DNA from: a virus
Virus record (IMG/VR): IMGVR_UViG_3300044644_000378
Location: 1 to 37,628 of that record
Strand: one strand, 5' to 3'
DNA: 37,628 nt
Part shown: positions 3,425 through 9,384 of the stretch, one piece after another
How the letters are laid out: every line of letters begins with the position of its first letter
Numbering within the stretch: the stretch's first letter is position 1
The notes under the pieces: model-generated
What the model saw: the letters and a program-made list of their open reading frames with translations, nothing else
What the model was told of the DNA's origin: nothing
Database searches by the model: none
Program-made: the position numbers and the translations under genes

Positions 3425-5734
3425 TTATTCTACTATAATAAAACCTTCGTCGTCAACCGTTTTGTTTTCTAATAGAATCATATCATTATTTGGTTCAACG
3501 ATAATAAACTCTACTGCATCATTGACATAATCTGCTGTAACCGCACTACCGCTAGCAATGTTTTCAAACAGTATTTTCTTACTTAACGGTACTTTAATTA
3601 ACTCACTAATCTTACGTGATAGTGGACGTGCGCCCATTGCACGATCAAACCCAACTTCAACTAAGTGATCAACTAATGTTTCTGTTGAACGTAGTTTAAT
3701 TTGTTTCTCAGCAAGCAATTCATTAAGCTCGTTTAAGAATTTAACAACAATCTTCTTCATGCTAATCTTATCAAGTCCGTTAAACTTAACCACTGCATCT
3801 AAACGATTGCGAAATTCTGGTTTAAAGAACTTTTTAACAGCACTATCATCTTCGCCTGATTTTTGTAAGTCGCGACCAAAGCCAATGTTGTTCTGCTCAT
3901 TGTCCGCTGAACCTAAGTTACTTGTTAGCACTAGCATAGCATTGCGGCAATCCGCTTTCTTACCATTGCTACCAGTAATTGTACCTTCGTCCATGATCTG
4001 TAACAATAAGTTACTAATATCTGGGTGAGCCTTTTCAATTTCATCTAACAAGATAATTGAATGCGGGTTACGTTCAACTTCACTAATTAACAAGCCGCCA
4101 CCTAAGTTACCATCTTCGTAGCCGACATAGCCCGGAGGAGCACCGATAAGTTTAGCCATTGCATGTTTCTCTTGATATTCACTCATATCAAAGCGGATTA
4201 ATTTCATGCCTAAGTTTTCACTAAGCAATTTAGCAAGCTCTGTCTTACCTGTACCAGTTGGACCTAAGAATAAGAAGTTACCGATTGGTTTGTTATGTGC
4301 TTTTAATCCAGCCTTGGCAACATAAATCTTCTCGAGCACTGCATCAACTGCGGTATCTTGTCCGTATAGTTTGTCTTTAATATTGCTTTCTAAACTTGGT
4401 AACGAAGTTGATGCATGTTTACTATCAAAGTTTTCTTTTGGAATCTTGGTTGCTTTGGCGAGTGTATCAATAATTGCATCACCATTAACTACCCAAGTTG
4501 GATTGCTAATTTTAAGACGTGCGCAACTCATATCAATTAAGTCAATTGCCTTATCCGGCAAACGTTTGTCTGTTTGATAACGTACACTTAAATCAACTGC
4601 TAGTTCAATTGCTTCTTCTAAAATTACGCCGTTGTGAAACTTTTCAAAGTGCCCTTTAAGTCCAAGTAAGATGTCCTTAGCAACTTCTGGACTAGGTTCA
4701 TCAATGTTTAATTTATAGAATCTGCGCATTAATGCACGATCTTTTTCAAACGACTGTGTGTATTCTTCGTAGGTAGTACTTGCAATAACTTTAAGGCCGC
4801 CTTTAGCCAATGCTGGTTTGAGCATATTAGCAAAGTCTACTGAACTTGAACTACCTGCACCTGCACCCTGCATTTGATGTGCTTCATCAATGAATAAGAT
4901 ACAGTTACCTTTGGTGTTTAATGACTCAAGTACATCTTTAAGTTTTTCTTCAAATTCACCGCGATACTTACTACCTGCTAACAAACTACCAATTTCTAAG
5001 TTGTAGACTGTATAAGGTTTTAAATACTCCGGAACGTCACCGTTAACAATTTTAAACGCAAGTCCTTCTGCAATAGCAGTTTTACCCACACCCGGATCAC
5101 CAATCATTAGCACGTTGGATTTATGACGACGAGCAAGTACCTGTGCAATTTCTTCTAGTTCATATTCACGACCGATAACAGGGTCAATTTTGCCATCCGT
5201 AGCAACTGCATTTAGATTTGTACAATACTCTTCTAATATTGCATCGGAATAATCCTGTTTAACTTTTGGATCTTTAGCCTTAACTGCTTTACCGTCGACA
5301 AATTTATCTGCGTAATATTTTACTAGATCTTTACGGTTAATACCCCATTTAAGCATAAAGTATGCCGCATGACTATTAGTTTCTTGACTGATACTTAGGA
5401 ACAAATCAACCGGCTCCATTTGCTCACGTGCTGTAAACAACACCTGTGTAAATGCACGATTAAACACTCGCTCTAAACTATGCGTACGTTGCGGAACAAT
5501 TTCTTTATCGGATAAATCCACAAGGTGATCTTGTTGCGCAGTGTATTCATATAAGTCTGCTAATAGCGGAGTAGTATCAATACCATAGTCGGTTAATAAC
5601 TTTTTAAATGATCTAAATTCAACTAATGCAATTAACAAATGTTCTAGTGTTACATATTCATGCCTATAGTCACGTGCAAGTTCAGTTGCAGCTGCAATGA
5701 TTTCTTCAATTTCGGGATTAGAATTTATTGCCAT
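3425..5734 (-). CDS. clpA: ClpA-type AAA+ unfoldase
   Basis: A 769-residue double-ring Clp/Hsp100 ATPase, close to the E. coli ClpA length of 758. It has a Clp N-domain (about 1-145), D1 with Walker A GDPGVGKT (212-219) and Walker B LFIDEA (280-285), and D2 with Walker A GPTGTGKT (491-498) and Walker B LLDEIE (562-567). It lacks the long ClpB middle domain between D1 and D2, so it is ClpA- or ClpC-like. At 616-619 it reads NIGF, in the position of the ClpP-docking loop of ClpA (IGL) and ClpX (IGF). The likely role is unfolding proteins for host ClpP. It follows dnaJ by 12 bases, so both are probably co-transcribed. No phage ClpP is present in the window. Confidence 0.93.
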   Translation of the reverse strand: MAINSNPEIEEIIAAATELARDYRHEYVTLEHLLIALVEFRSFKKLLTDYGIDTTPLLADLYEYTAQQDHLVDLSDKEIVPQRTHSLERVFNRAFTQVLFTAREQMEPVDLFLSISQETNSHAAYFMLKWGINRKDLVKYYADKFVDGKAVKAKDPKVKQDYSDAILEEYCTNLNAVATDGKIDPVIGREYELEEIAQVLARRHKSNVLMIGDPGVGKTAIAEGLAFKIVNGDVPEYLKPYTVYNLEIGSLLAGSKYRGEFEEKLKDVLESLNTKGNCILFIDEAHQMQGAGAGSSSSVDFANMLKPALAKGGLKVIASTTYEEYTQSFEKDRALMRRFYKLNIDEPSPEVAKDILLGLKGHFEKFHNGVILEEAIELAVDLSVRYQTDKRLPDKAIDLIDMSCARLKISNPTWVVNGDAIIDTLAKATKIPKENFDSKHASTSLPSLESNIKDKLYGQDTAVDAVLEKIYVAKAGLKAHNKPIGNFLFLGPTGTGKTELAKLLSENLGMKLIRFDMSEYQEKHAMAKLIGAPPGYVGYEDGNLGGGLLISEVERNPHSIILLDEIEKAHPDISNLLLQIMDEGTITGSNGKKADCRNAMLVLTSNLGSADNEQNNIGFGRDLQKSGEDDSAVKKFFKPEFRNRLDAVVKFNGLDKISMKKIVVKFLNELNELLAEKQIKLRSTETLVDHLVEVGFDRAMGARPLSRKISELIKVPLSKKILFENIASGSAVTADYVNDAVEFIIVEPNNDMILLENKTVDDEGFIIVE

Positions 5735-5746
5735 TTTTAGTCCTTG

Positions 5747-6574
5747 CTAGTTAATTGTTTTAAGTATTTCTATCTGTGCCGCTGTTAATGTTGGAGTTTT
5801 AATTATTGTATTGACAATTAAATCACCTCGATAGTCGGTGTTCATTTGATATAGGCCTTTGCCTTGTAGACCAAACTTAGCTCCAAATTGACATCCTTGC
5901 GGAATCTTAATTAAGAACGTACTACCATCGATTCCTTCTACTTCTTTTTCTGTGCCTGTCATTGCTTCAATTGAGGAAATTTCTAAATTACTAACTAAAT
6001 TAATGCCGTGCAGTTCAAAACGTGGATCATTAATTACATTAATAATAACATATAAATCACCACGTGTCAACGATTCAAAGAAGTTGTCGCCCATTTGTGT
6101 ATATTTAATTGTTGTGCCATTACTTACACCACGTGGTATTTTTACATCAACGTTAAACTTATCATTTTTAGTAGTCTGAACACTTACTGTTTTTTGTTGT
6201 TCGTTTAATGTGCTAGCCATAGTAACAGTTATATTGATACGTAGGTCTTTGTTGCGTCTTGGTTGTGATTGTTGATGGAATGGATGTCCACCACGTTGGC
6301 TAAAGAATTGACTGAATATATCCTGTGGACCACCTCCGCCAAAATGGAATTCAAATCCACCACCATTACCACCGAATGGATTTGGATTATCGTGTTGCTG
6401 GCGTTTTTGTGGATCGGAAAGCGTTTCGTACGCACCCTGTATCTCTTGAAACTTAGCAGTGTCGCCACCTTCTTTATCGGGGTGATGTTTAGCGGCGAGC
6501 TTGCGATAAGCTCGTTTAATTTCTTCGTCTGTGGCGCCGCGTTGTACGCCTAGTGTTGAGTATGCATCTGTCAT
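5747..6574 (-). CDS. dnaJ: DnaJ/CbpA-type Hsp40 co-chaperone
   Basis: A 275-residue J-protein. The J domain (about 1-65) has the HPD motif at residues 31-33, followed by a Gly/Phe-rich linker (about 66-105) and a two-part C-terminal substrate-binding region. No Cys-rich zinc finger is present, so it is CbpA-like (class II). It should stimulate host DnaK. The frame extends 20 codons further upstream, but that extension contains the -10 box of a consensus promoter. The ATG at 6574 ([10 protein letters not shown]) matches the family start and is chosen. No Shine-Dalgarno precedes it, and the predicted transcript starts at or within a base of this ATG, implying a leaderless message. It is followed by clpA. 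Confidence 0.93.
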
Positions 6575-6581
6575 AATAGTT

Positions 6582-6610
6582 ATTATATGTGAAAAAAGGA
6601 GAATTGTCAA
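6582..6610 (-). promoter_or_regulatory. consensus sigma-70 promoter for dnaJ-clpA
   Basis: The -35 TTGACA (6605-6610) and -10 TATAAT (6582-6587) are separated by exactly 17 bases. Only 7 bases lie between the -10 box and the dnaJ ATG, so transcription should begin at about 6575. The -35 box lies mostly inside the loop of the preceding terminator hairpin. Confidence 0.88.
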
Positions 6611-6622
6611 GCTCTCCTTTTT
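6593..6622 (-). terminator. rho-independent terminator after the holin unit
   Basis: A 10-bp inverted repeat (arms 6593-6602 and 6613-6622) with a 10-base loop, read on the minus strand as AAAAAGGAGA, loop, TCTCCTTTTT. It ends in a T-run. It lies directly after the stop of the holin frameshift extension (6647) and before dnaJ. The stem is AT-rich and only moderately stable. Confidence 0.6.
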
Positions 6623-6646
6623 ATTTACTATCAAATCGATCTGATG

Positions 6647-6880
6647 TTAAGTTTTCTTTCTACGTAACGGTCTATTTGGATCTACAGCTACTGGTTCAGG
6701 TGTAACTTCTGCTTCTTGTGGTATTTCTACCATTTCCTGACCAACTGCTATTTCCTGTACTTCATTAACTACTGCTGGTTGTTTTGCAGTTACTGGTACG
6801 TTATCCTCTGGCGCACTTTGACTTAACCATACAGGCTCTGTTGAAGAACTTAATACCGGGGCGTCTTCAAACCCTGTTAC
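6647..6880 (-). CDS. C-terminal extension reached by -1 frameshift from holin gene
   Basis: A 77-codon open stretch in the -1 frame relative to the holin. The peptide is acidic and Pro/Val/Glu-rich (for example VEIPQEAEVTPEPVAVDPNR) with a basic end RPLRRKKT. It has no ATG, GTG or TTG near its beginning; an in-frame TGA lies five codons before the joint, and the first Met is at codon 50. It is therefore best read as the second part of a frameshifted 173-residue holin product. Composition and codon use look protein-coding. It is presumably a soluble tail on the cytoplasmic or periplasmic face of the holin; function unknown. Confidence 0.68.
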   Translation of the reverse strand, partial: VTGFEDAPVLSSSTEPVWLSQSAPEDNVPVTAKQPAVVNEVQEIAVGQEMVEIPQEAEVTPEPVAVDPNRPLRRKKT

Positions 6881-6886
6881 TTTCCC
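6841..6886 (-). promoter_or_regulatory. programmed -1 frameshift site: GGGAAAG slippery heptamer plus hairpin
   Basis: On the minus strand the last holin codons read GCG GGA AAG TAA, giving the heptamer G GGA AAG (6880-6886) in the correct register for simultaneous -1 slippage, directly before the stop codon. The same heptamer is used in the phage lambda G/GT frameshift. Nine bases after it comes a perfect 7-bp hairpin (arms 6864-6870 and 6841-6847). After slippage the ribosome reads GGG AAA GTA and continues for 77 codons. Confidence 0.7.
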
Positions 6887-7167
6887 GCATCACCGTTTTC
6901 AATAGATGCTACTTTTTCTTTACCGCGTGTCCAGGCTGCAATACCTAAGATAGCACCCATGGAGATATGGTATAAACCACCGCCCTGTAATGTTAACGGT
7001 ACCCACATACCCACTGCTTGACCAGGATTCCAATATTGTAGTAAGTTAAATAAGATCGGTCCTACGATAAAGTCAAACCAAATTGTTGCCATGTATGTAA
7101 TAGCCATTAATGGGCGCCATTTGCTGGTCATCCAATCTTCTGATTTTTTTTCTGCTTGAGTTGTCAT
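6877..7167 (-). CDS. holin-like membrane protein (zero-frame product)
   Basis: A 96-residue protein with a charged N-terminus, a conserved SKWRPLMAITYMATIWFDFI region, and hydrophobic segments at about 19-43, 52-60 and 65-80, followed by a short charged tail. This resembles the 3-TM phage holin families. It lies in a lysis cassette with endolysin and spanins, which supports a role in permeabilising the inner membrane. A good ribosome-binding site (TAGGAG) precedes the ATG, and an AATAAATA late motif lies at 7198-7205. The last sense codons form a -1 slippery site, so a second product of 173 residues is predicted. Confidence 0.78.
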   Translation of the reverse strand: MTTQAEKKSEDWMTSKWRPLMAITYMATIWFDFIVGPILFNLLQYWNPGQAVGMWVPLTLQGGGLYHISMGAILGIAAWTRGKEKVASIENGDAGK

Positions 7168-7214: not shown

Positions 7215-7424
7215 TTAACTTACTGCACCAGCTACATCAATTAAATCATTGATTATTTCGTTTAACTGACTTAATTTTGCTAAATCACCAGCTGCCGCTT
7301 CGATAACTTTAGTACTTTGTAAATCTTTAAGTAATTCTTTATACTCAGTTAACGATAGCTTACCAGCTGTAAATTCTGCTGCTAATGCATGTACTTCCAT
7401 TACTACATTGTCTACGCTACTCAT
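7215..7424 (-). CDS. small helical protein in the lysis cassette
   Basis: A 69-residue, mostly helical, acidic protein (start MSSVDNVVMEVHALAAEFTA) with no signal peptide or membrane segment. Its ATG overlaps the TGA of the upstream lipoprotein gene (ATGA), so it is translationally coupled to the lysis genes. Function unknown; it might modulate lysis timing, but nothing in the sequence proves that. Confidence 0.65.
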   Translation of the reverse strand: MSSVDNVVMEVHALAAEFTAGKLSLTEYKELLKDLQSTKVIEAAAGDLAKLSQLNEIINDLIDVAGAVS

Positions 7425-7834
7425 CTTGGTTTAGCTCCTATTACTGTTTTCATTGTACCCGAACTGTTTTCTATATTATTAAATTTAAGTTCGCAGTACT
7501 TTTTACTAACTTCATCACCGCTATCATAACGATCTTTAAGACCTTTGGTAATGACAGCAAGTTCTGTGGTCATTGTTATTGTAGCTTTGTTCTCAGGAAT
7601 ACTAGCTGAGTAGTTACGAAGTTCTATGCTTTTAACATAAACAGTGTCTACATAGGCTAACACTTCTTTAGTACCGCATTTAGTCACGCCTACTTGTGCT
7701 TGTGTATGAATTTGATTAACTAAACTGTATTCGTTGCTGTCAAACTTAGCCATACGGTACGCATCAATTATTGTACTAATACTAGCACAACCTGACAATA
7801 GAACTACTAGACTAACTAGAGCTAGTTTTTTCAT
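7421..7834 (-). CDS. predicted lipoprotein in the lysis cassette
   Basis: A 137-residue protein with a lipoprotein signal peptide: MKKLALVSLVVLLSGCASIS, lipobox LSGC with Cys at position 16. The mature part is mixed alpha/beta with two further Cys. It is expected to be exported and lipid-anchored. The start overlaps the o-spanin stop (ATGA) and the end overlaps the next gene, so it is embedded in the lysis operon. It is longer than a usual Rz1 and not Pro-rich, so it is not the main o-spanin candidate. It may be an extra outer-membrane or superinfection factor. Confidence 0.7.
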   Translation of the reverse strand: MKKLALVSLVVLLSGCASISTIIDAYRMAKFDSNEYSLVNQIHTQAQVGVTKCGTKEVLAYVDTVYVKSIELRNYSASIPENKATITMTTELAVITKGLKDRYDSGDEVSKKYCELKFNNIENSSGTMKTVIGAKPR

Positions 7835-8091
7835 TTAACTTCCTCGTAGATACGACGTTGTTCTTTATACCAAATACCCCATGCTTCGTGTTTGGCTTGA
7901 CATTCATAATAGGTGCTATAGTTTTCACTTACATTGCTCACAACATCACTTAGTTTGCTAGTGTCGGTTGGTAGCTGGGTAAGAACTGGACAATCTATAG
8001 CAAGTTCACTCGGAACATCTGGAAATGGTGCTTTAACTGGCACTAGAGTTGAACACCCTGAGAGTAATAATACCGCTAATAGATATCTCAT
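7831..8091 (-). CDS. Rz1-like outer-membrane spanin lipoprotein
   Basis: An 86-residue protein with a short signal peptide and lipobox (MRYLLAVLLLSGCSTL, LSGC, Cys at 13), followed by a Pro-containing segment VPVKAPFPDVP typical of Rz1-like subunits. It directly follows the i-spanin gene with an ATGA overlap, the classical Rz/Rz1 order. It should be anchored in the outer membrane and pair with the inner-membrane spanin to fuse the two membranes at lysis. The mature part is acidic and contains a C-terminal helix. The assignment rests on the lipobox and context. Confidence 0.72.
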   Translation of the reverse strand: MRYLLAVLLLSGCSTLVPVKAPFPDVPSELAIDCPVLTQLPTDTSKLSDVVSNVSENYSTYYECQAKHEAWGIWYKEQRRIYEEVK

Positions 8092-8537
8092 TTAGTTTCT
8101 CCCACTGGTTTCTCTGCGGCCTTGTTTAATATTTCAATAGCTTCTTTAGGCACTACGCATTCACCGTTGATAATCTTTTCTTTTTCTACAATTTCTTTCT
8201 GTAGTTGAACCTGTACTTCTTTAATTTTTTTGATCTTAGTAACTACTTTAGTTTTGATCACTGTGTTTGTTTCTTGGCTTTTAACCACAGCCGCATCTAC
8301 TTTAGCCTGTAATTCTGCAGCACGAGCACGCCACTGCATCTCAACTTCGTAGCCGCCTTTAAAATATACACCTGCTACCAACAGCATAATGCCTACAACC
8401 TGTACTATTAGTCGATAGGGTCTAAGGTAACTAAAATTGAATACAAAGCCTAGCAATGAAGTAATGATACCGGCATAGAATACACCGTTAACGAATCCAT
8501 GTATGATGCTATCTGGAATAAATGTCAACATCCACAT
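8088..8537 (-). CDS. Rz-like inner-membrane spanin
   Basis: A 149-residue protein with two hydrophobic segments (about 10-33 and 43-60), then a long charged coiled-coil region (about 68-125, rich in VVTKIKKIKEVQVQLQKE-type heptads). This is the expected organisation of an i-spanin, although most Rz proteins have only one membrane segment. It starts one base after the endolysin stop and overlaps the o-spanin start. An alternative start at the second Met (residue 3) is possible. Role: periplasmic coiled coil linking inner and outer membranes during lysis. Confidence 0.72.
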   Translation of the reverse strand: MWMLTFIPDSIIHGFVNGVFYAGIITSLLGFVFNFSYLRPYRLIVQVVGIMLLVAGVYFKGGYEVEMQWRARAAELQAKVDAAVVKSQETNTVIKTKVVTKIKKIKEVQVQLQKEIVEKEKIINGECVVPKEAIEILNKAAEKPVGETK

Positions 8538-8538
8538 G

Positions 8539-9384
8539 TTATTCTCCTAGCATTTTTTTGATAGTATTTGGACCAACAACACCATCTGCGGTTAGGCCAT
8601 GTGCTGTTTGCCATGCTTTAACTGCTTTCTCTGTACCTGGACCAAACTTACCATCTGCTGTTTGTCCTAGAGCCTTTTGTACTGCTTTAACTGTGTCGTT
8701 ATTGCTACCTACACGTACTGTTACGTACTCTGTAGCTGTAGCAGGTGCCGCATGTGACTCTGCTACGTGTCCGCCACCTAGTAAGTGTTTAGCTTCTTTG
8801 TAGTGCTTTGTACGGTCTTCTAAGCCAATGGTACCACCGTTAATACGTTTAGTCATTTTAACTATATCATCACTATCACAGATAGCGTTTAGGCCATTTG
8901 TTTTCCAAAACCAGCAAGCTGATTCAATAGCACCGTCTAGTGTTTCTAAGTCTGCTACTGCTTCTTCTACAGTTAAGCCTACTGATTTAGCAAATTTAGT
9001 ATAGTTGTCACGTCCTGTTAGTTGAATAGCACCACGACCACAGAATTTAAATCCATCACCACTAGACTCTGGACCATTGCCCATACGTCCACCGTAGACT
9101 TTGTTAGCAATCTTTTCTGGTTGACGATGATATGGTTGCGCACTTGCTAGTGTTGGGAAATATTTTTTAAAGATTTTACTTAAACCCTCTGCTGAATAGT
9201 TTAAGTTTTCTTTAAGAATTGTAAAGCCCGCCGACTCATGTCCGCATTGTGCTAAGAAGCCTGCTGCACGATTAACTGTGTTAATCTCGTACTTTTCAAA
9301 TTGCTCTGTAAGTACTTCTGCTAGGTCTTCTGGATGTTTATACTTTGGAAATAGTGCTTTGATTATACCTGCTGTAATTTGCAT
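8539..9384 (-). CDS. endolysin: GH19 chitinase/lysozyme domain plus peptidoglycan-binding domain
   Basis: A 281-residue endolysin. The N-terminal glycoside hydrolase family 19 domain (about 1-200) shows the catalytic-site segment AQCGHESAGF (Glu50), the NYSAEGL segment, and the conserved GRGAIQLTGRDNY substrate-cleft motif near 118-130. A Thr/Ala-rich linker is followed by a C-terminal PG_binding_1-type domain (about 215-281, with VKAVQKALG and TADGVVGPNTIKKM). It has no signal peptide, so export depends on the holin. It cleaves the glycan backbone of peptidoglycan. It is first in the cassette order endolysin, i-spanin, o-spanin, lipoprotein, small protein, holin. Confidence 0.92.
   Translation of the reverse strand: MQITAGIIKALFPKYKHPEDLAEVLTEQFEKYEINTVNRAAGFLAQCGHESAGFTILKENLNYSAEGLSKIFKKYFPTLASAQPYHRQPEKIANKVYGGRMGNGPESSGDGFKFCGRGAIQLTGRDNYTKFAKSVGLTVEEAVADLETLDGAIESACWFWKTNGLNAICDSDDIVKMTKRINGGTIGLEDRTKHYKEAKHLLGGGHVAESHAAPATATEYVTVRVGSNNDTVKAVQKALGQTADGKFGPGTEKAVKAWQTAHGLTADGVVGPNTIKKMLGE

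Follow-up and report, generated by a model that had tools for sequence, protein, structure and literature searches.

Holins time lysis, and how phages set the timer is a long-standing question. To our knowledge, the known holins that occur in two forms rely either on a pair of start codons or on an antiholin encoded by a gene of its own. Dual-start genes are described for S of phage lambda (PMC3091744) and for 24.1/24.1* and 26/26* of SPP1 (PMC6316719), in which one gene yields two forms that differ N-terminally by the choice of start; the gene considered here would likewise yield two forms, but these would differ C-terminally, by frameshifting. Frameshifting by -1 with signals of the present kind is known from phage tail and head genes, IS elements and dnaX (PMC5009743, PMC4066793), and GGGAAAG is reported to be one of the three heptamers that shift best in E. 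coli (PMC4066793). In Streptomyces phages, frameshifts have been predicted in genes near predicted holins (PMC9671017). Among the matches listed in a search of the open-access literature, outside which most subscription papers lie, we found no published frameshift holin.

Several described systems resemble the locus in part. Lambda gpG/gpGT shares with it the G_GGA_AAG heptamer, as a preliminary description of this DNA had stated (PMC7618472), a -1 shift close to where the first frame ends and the resulting C-terminal extension, and gpGT is given there as the minor share at 30:1 (PMC7618472, PMC5009743). The present gene differs from gpG/gpGT in that no homology was found, in its position in a lysis cassette, in a conserved candidate H-type pseudoknot and in encoding a membrane protein. 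In dnaX (tau/gamma; E. coli and Chlorobium-type), nested products arise by a -1 slip with a stop beside the site, and both frame orders are described (PMC3711429, PMC5009743), as is predicted here; dnaX, however, encodes a replication protein and its E. coli stimulator is a stem loop, whereas the swap reported below takes place within one phage holin family. For many reversed dnaX genes transcriptional slippage is the favoured explanation (PMC3711429). A shift exactly at the stop codon is described for SPP1 gp17.1/gp17.1*, where part of the product is thereby lengthened by 87 residues (PMC6316719), but this is a +1 shift at CCCUAA in a tail tube protein. Finally, IS3 provides a bacterial -1 shift with a pseudoknot (PMC4066793) and an H-type pseudoknot is predicted at a tail-gene site of phi16 (PMC5506516); unlike the gene described here, the one belongs to a transposable element and the other to tail genes, neither being related to lysis.

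The stretch of DNA analysed here, referred to as the window, comprises the 37,628 nucleotides of the IMG/VR virus record IMGVR_UViG_3300044644_000378. Comparison with its relatives makes it very probable that one of its genes encodes a holin and carries a cassette for programmed -1 ribosomal frameshifting, which would give a short and a long holin. The gene and its upstream neighbours are as follows.

6877..7167, minus strand: predicted holin, 0-frame (short) product of 96 residues (GTA_holin_3TM and phrog_3427 matches, hydropathy)
7421..7834, minus strand: lipoprotein-like ORF with a lipobox LLSGC seen by eye (phrog_1119, 'Cor superinfection exclusion protein', E 5.5e-4)
7831..8091, minus strand: Rz1/LysC-like outer-membrane spanin lipoprotein (phrog_2425, unknown function, E 8.6e-8; phrog_456, Rz-like spanin, E 8.2e-6)
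8088..8537, minus strand: likely inner-membrane spanin, N-terminal hydrophobic segments followed by a coiled-coil-like part, by eye (phrog_4952, 'signal peptide motif', E 1.3e-4)
8539..9384, minus strand: endolysin with a GH19-like part and PG_binding_1 (phrog_181, E 8e-79; PF01471, PF00182)

The short product scores 28.2 bits against GTA_holin_3TM of Pfam (PF11351; curated cut-off 24.8, E 3e-6), in an alignment that spans profile positions 56-117 of 123 and leaves the first half of the profile unmatched, and it matches the PHROG holin family phrog_3427 with an E value of 2.9e-8. In Pfam and PHROG only holin families lie above the cut-off or below 1e-3, and no homology to G/GT tail chaperones was found. 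By eye, the next Met after the holin start is residue 13. The neighbours are lysis genes and not a tail operon: the cassette, read along the minus strand, consists of the endolysin, the likely inner spanin, the Rz1/LysC-like lipoprotein (25.4 bits against PF23793 LysC, slightly below the cut-off of 27), the second lipoprotein-like ORF (no Pfam family at 0.01), a 69-codon ORF and, last, the holin. Past the cassette, two proteins are encoded at positions 3425-6634 of the same strand, one an AAA protein of the Clp type, the other DnaJ-like, with a J domain and a C-terminal domain.

We infer that the product of 6877..7167 acts as a holin. There is a small chance that it is another membrane protein, for example a virion or membrane factor, which the frameshift would then serve. 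The distant homologue in PA5oct (L326:3001-3327) is recorded as a structural protein, with an ESI-MS/MS note, and hydropathy gives two hydrophobic segments in the 96 residues, the second weak, where the GTA_holin_3TM family has three. Against this stand the cassette with endolysin and spanin-like genes, the match to a PHROG lysis family and the small XhlA-like protein that follows in several wider relatives: in nine loci (L049, L051, L054, L060, L065, L068, L073, L074 and L107) a small gene lies directly after the holin homologue, and its product has a coiled-coil-like stretch and a C-terminal membrane segment, being XhlA-like by eye.

The holin frame closes with the codons GCG GGA AAG TAA, and the signals around this end are the following.

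6880..6886, minus strand: slippery heptamer G_GGA_AAG in X_XXY_YYZ register, the 0-frame TAA (6877-6879) following directly
6647..6880, minus strand: -1 extension, 77 codons after the slip plus TAA, giving a predicted long product of 173 residues
6595..6620, minus strand: terminator-like stem AAAGGAGA/TCTCCTTT followed by a T-run, seen by eye after the -1 stop

The preliminary description had read this arrangement correctly in most respects: the heptamer lies in register right before the stop, the -1 frame is open for 77 codons up to TAA at 6647-6649, and it lacks a usable start, its earliest ATG, GTG or TTG being at codon index 49 (0 being the first codon after the slip; read from L002, the locus that represents the window). 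The terminator that it placed shortly after the -1 stop is visible by eye, with a loop of 10 bases; a scanner that accepts loops of 3-8 bases only reports none, and by eye comparable hairpins lie 3' of the -1 stop in all 15 genes of the type described below. The tail has an acidic, Pro-rich body, a PVWL motif and a basic tip, PNRPLRRKKT. Taken singly, the evidence from the window is weak, GGGAAAR occurring three times where 6.2 are expected, so that the heptamer alone is unremarkable. The case for a frameshift carries weight because the arrangement is conserved in relatives.

At positions 6582-6620 of the minus strand, a TTGACA in the loop of the terminator hairpin stands 17 bases before a perfect TATAAT (12/12 match), and from this placement the terminator seems to overlap the promoter of the DnaJ-like gene. 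By eye, a like arrangement is present in L003, L010, L008 (TACAAT) and L009, and as TTGACG in L005, L015 and L017.

Relatives were collected by scanning IMG/VR with several family members, together with one scan of genome contigs. Of the resulting 323 loci, 322 match the family profile, and they were reduced to 128 distinct genes having a stop, which are a sample of the family (for one query, the best 80 of at least 600 stretches). The window itself (L001) is without a stop in its locus and is represented by L002, which equals the window gene over all 521 bases from the start to the -1 stop. Fifteen of the 128 genes, that of the window included, are split in the same way, and they come from 17 contigs with 17 different sample numbers. 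All 15 carry GGGAAAG or GGGAAAA in register, the first G of the heptamer being the third base of GCG or TCG throughout; the 0-frame stop follows the heptamer directly in 13 genes, after one codon in L015 and after three in L020, and the -1 frame is open for 62-93 codons. In the remaining 113 genes, the holin frame itself includes a tail of 30 codons or more in 55 and a shorter one in 53; 5 are unclassed. As a correction to the preliminary description, a tail is thus common elsewhere in the family (55/128 carry at least 30 codons of it in the holin frame). The split arrangement is absent from the homologues in Phosso, Atu_ph07 and PA5oct (three of 15 named phage records were examined), and the genome contigs yielded one distant relative, L116, without it.

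A pattern search of the viral contigs for the element returned 19 matches, among them all 17 split-type contigs. The match in L334 looks like chance G-runs. In L338 (9551-9579, minus strand) the pattern lies at the end of an unrelated gene whose -1 frame continues, and this may be a frameshift of the G/GT tail chaperone type.

The 15 tails contain no stop in the -1 frame and 102 and 94 in the other two frames. Pooled over all pairs, pN/pS of the tail is 0.65 in the -1 frame as compared with 0.91 and 1.21 in the shifted frames, while the holin core gives 0.20, hence the tail evolves fast. Among close pairs, tail dS and dN are 0.26 and 0.04 (L011/L014) and 0.12 and 0.03 (L002/L009); in looser pairs they are 0.62 and 0.31 (L002/L008) and 0.67 and 0.47 (L016/L137). 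Identity between tails is as low as 62% in the 12 compared, and all 15 have the motif P-[VQE]-W-[LIV], an acidic body (net charge -5 to -16) and basic last ten residues (net +4 to +6). On these comparisons the -1 frame shows the behaviour of a coding sequence under purifying selection. The two ORFs overlap in the manner of coupled genes, which would also suit a tail that forms an independent gene, reached by re-initiation or read from a start codon of its own. We regard this as very unlikely, since L014 and L015 have no ATG, GTG or TTG anywhere in the -1 frame after the slip, since the first such codon in the other 13 split genes is at index 23-65, past the conserved first part, and since related tails are fused in frame to the holin in four relatives described below.

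The heptamer is followed by two predicted stems.

6859..6874, minus strand: pseudoknot stem 1, GGGT (6874-6871) with GCCC (6862-6859), five bases past the heptamer
6841..6870, minus strand: pseudoknot stem 2, TTGAAGA (6870-6864) with TCTTCAA (6847-6841), the 7-bp hairpin noted earlier, with a 16-base loop

The hairpin of stem 2 begins nine bases past the heptamer, as had been pointed out, and the GCCC partner of stem 1 sits in its loop. The pairing described at first is thus present, but the stimulator looks like an H-type pseudoknot rather than a hairpin. In general form, stem 1 pairs GGG(G)U with (G/A)CCC(C), and stem 2 is formed between a segment lying between the stem-1 arms and one downstream. 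A simple stem-loop was tried as stimulator and rejected: RNAalifold gives only a stem of four pairs, plus one of two pairs, with little covariation, and a simple hairpin stands out against synonymous resampling (p<0.05) in just 9 of 19 genes. A short and a long fold conflicted over one stretch, which led to the idea of a pseudoknot.

In the 14-codon stretch from the heptamer onwards, synonymous difference is 0.18 per column as against 0.41 in the comparison columns, a value that none of 20,000 permutations matched, the permutation omitting the first 20 alignment columns, in which synonymous change is also low, and taking columns as independent. When 14-codon windows are slid along the alignment (n=177), the eight lowest begin either in the first six columns or 5-6 columns before the heptamer. 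A uniform search finds an H-type pseudoknot possible in 18 of 18 genes, namely the 15 split genes and the relatives L012, L018 and L019 with the opposite frame order, the best stem-1 register deviating in L003, L007, L010, L017 and L018/L019; the limits of this search, like the -16 threshold of the scan of 0-frame tails described below, were chosen after the pseudoknot had been noticed by eye in these sequences. Against synonymous resampling, with codon usage from the 22 ORFs of the window only, at most 16 of 400 resamples equal the pseudoknot in 17 of the 18 genes, and L005 does not stand out (45/400).

Covariation was assessed on an alignment of 16 sequences (the 15 split genes and L012; L018, L019 and L021 were left out) with 13 distinct rows. 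Paired cells make up 87%, where shuffles give 79% and slid partners 63% at the most, and stem 2 has 16 cells changed on both sides, a number reached by none of 500 shuffles and in no slid register. In stem 2, three pairs are A-U in some rows and G-C or C-G in others. TTGAAGA:TCTTCAA of the window stands against TCGAAGA:TCTTCGA in L008, a change from U-A to C-G in which both substitutions are synonymous in the -1 frame. In the fixed register three pairs have a double change, a number that 177 of 500 shuffles reached, and the alignment shows 5 pair types where shuffles give 6.9; the covariation therefore rests on few evolutionary changes. Two pairs are broken in many rows, those of columns 13-30 in 8 of 13 rows and of columns 25-40 in 6 of 13, that is, the outermost of stem 1 and the innermost of stem 2. 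By eye, a Shine-Dalgarno-like AGGTGA, considered as an internal stimulator, lies upstream of the heptamer in some genes, L015, L016, L020 and L137 not being among them. The preliminary description had named conservation among homologues, with synonymous-biased change, as what a functional site should display: heptamer, downstream structure and -1 frame are kept in 15 of 15, and the changes are synonymous-biased and accompanied by compensatory changes in the stem.

That the long product arises by transcriptional slippage instead of ribosomal frameshifting, an alternative known from dnaX (PMC3711429, PMC5009743), appears highly improbable here. The site has runs of 3 G and of 3-4 A, whereas 9 A or T are described for slippage and 7 to 10 A for the dnaX candidates (PMC3711429, PMC5009743), and slippage would predict neither a pseudoknot nor the exact register of the heptamer.

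In four relatives (L012, L018, L019 and L021), a related tail is continuous in the holin's own frame. At the homologous place L012, L018 and L019 have GGGTTTT in register, an immediate stop in the -1 frame and a pseudoknot at a similar distance; L021 has U_UUU, with a -1 stop right after it and a pseudoknot that is marginal (55/1000). The GGGUUUU class is reported to be more shift-prone in E. coli than the rule of Sharma et al. predicts, and U_UUU ranks third among tetramers with a pseudoknot there (PMC4066793). A pattern search for GGGTTTT found the L018 and L019 contigs only, the pattern as written not fitting L012. The four were initially chosen by eye and ranked afterwards against all 55 genes with a 0-frame tail. 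When these 55 were scanned for the combination of a slippery tetramer or heptamer, an early -1 stop and a pseudoknot, L012, L018, L019 and L021 alone were positive, L018 and L019, which are close relatives, both being counted; 51 of 2200 synonymous resamples pass the same scan, so that about 1.3 would be expected among 55 where four are seen. A profile of the 15 -1 tails likewise ranks L021, L012, L018 and L019 at the top of the 55, with 60.0, 58.7, 20.4 and 18.3 bits, followed by L069 with 16.7 bits; these scores are without composition correction, and L018 and L019 resemble the -1 tails modestly. Of 57 genes, 5 combine a heptamer with a -1 stop soon after it, three of these having a hairpin as well. 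L028 and L069 were set aside as frameshift candidates, having a heptamer and a quick -1 stop, yet weak downstream structure.

Relatives with one continuous frame had been named at the outset as a possible pointer to a sequencing error in the window. Such relatives exist, in the four genes just described, and could suggest that the true gene is in one frame, as in L012, and that the split is due to a sequencing or assembly error or to a recent inactivating deletion. The probability of this is close to nil: the same split recurs in 15 distinct genes, whose 17 contigs bear 17 sample numbers, the tails have diverged to 62% identity (12 compared) with the -1 frame stop-free in 15 of 15, and the site has runs of 3 G and of 3-4 A. 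Error is not indicated, because 17 contigs from 17 samples share the split and because the continuous genes keep a slippery site followed by a pseudoknot, clear in three of them and marginal in L021. Lack of conservation of the -1 frame, the other outcome that would have counted against a programmed shift, is not what we find, since it is open in all 15. A two-length output thus seems to be kept among these relatives while the default product is swapped: with the long form as 0-frame product in the four sisters, selection apparently keeps two lengths and not one frame order.

A further possibility concerns the efficiency of the shift. It could be real but so efficient that the long holin predominates, the short one being a by-product, and we give this a minor though not negligible probability. 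In its favour, in 55 of 128 relatives one frame encodes the protein together with a tail that spans 30 codons or more, and CCCAAAG with the IS3 pseudoknot, the strongest pair tested in E. coli, reaches 54% (PMC4066793). However, a tail shorter than 30 codons is found in 53 of 128 relatives, so the short form is also normal, and the swapped relatives suggest that both forms matter.

On a tree of holin cores, the 15 split genes do not form one clade and require four changes, 16 of 36 inner branches being starred as weak. A single origin of the split type on this tree was rejected (p-AU 0.0025). The core of L137 differs, yet its element matches that of L016 bar one difference over the stretch up to the second stem. 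Owing to this near identity, recombination at the junction, with a cassette that travels, is the simplest reading and fits better than independent invention. The contrast between L003 and L010, whose cores differ by a dS of 0.35 and whose tails differ by 0.02, is another sign of recombination at the frameshift junction.

Taken together, it is reasonably probable that the slippery site and the H-type pseudoknot set the ratio of short to long holin, and that they have moved between holin cores by recombination, their polarity having been inverted while the two-product output was kept. The pseudoknot would meet the ribosome when GGA and AAG occupy the P and A sites. Most ribosomes would then stop after GGA AAG and release the 96-residue holin, while a fraction, stalled by the pseudoknot five bases downstream, would re-pair on GGG AAA instead of GGA AAG and translate 77 further codons to give the 173-residue holin. 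The tail of the long form, acidic, proline-rich, probably cytoplasmic and with a basic tip, could slow or recruit. In the four sister genes the long form would be the 0-frame product and the slip would yield the short one. Shifting presumably occurs in the host; the two forms may have a role in lysis timing, their ratio tuning when or how the membrane opens. The two products might stand in a fixed ratio and act in the manner of holin and antiholin, as the preliminary description had proposed. Relatives with a short tail only and relatives with a long tail only both exist, so that neither form can be indispensable throughout the family; in phages that make both, their ratio is the trait likely under selection.

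Ordinary start-to-stop gene calling would report the short form only. The swap of frame order among relatives amounts to a natural experiment on the two lengths, through which the role of the tail is directly testable. If true, the arrangement would be a distinct way for phages to programme lysis or to set the make-up of the lysis apparatus, in which control would lie in a ribosomal frameshift and the ratio of the two holins would be written into an RNA element.
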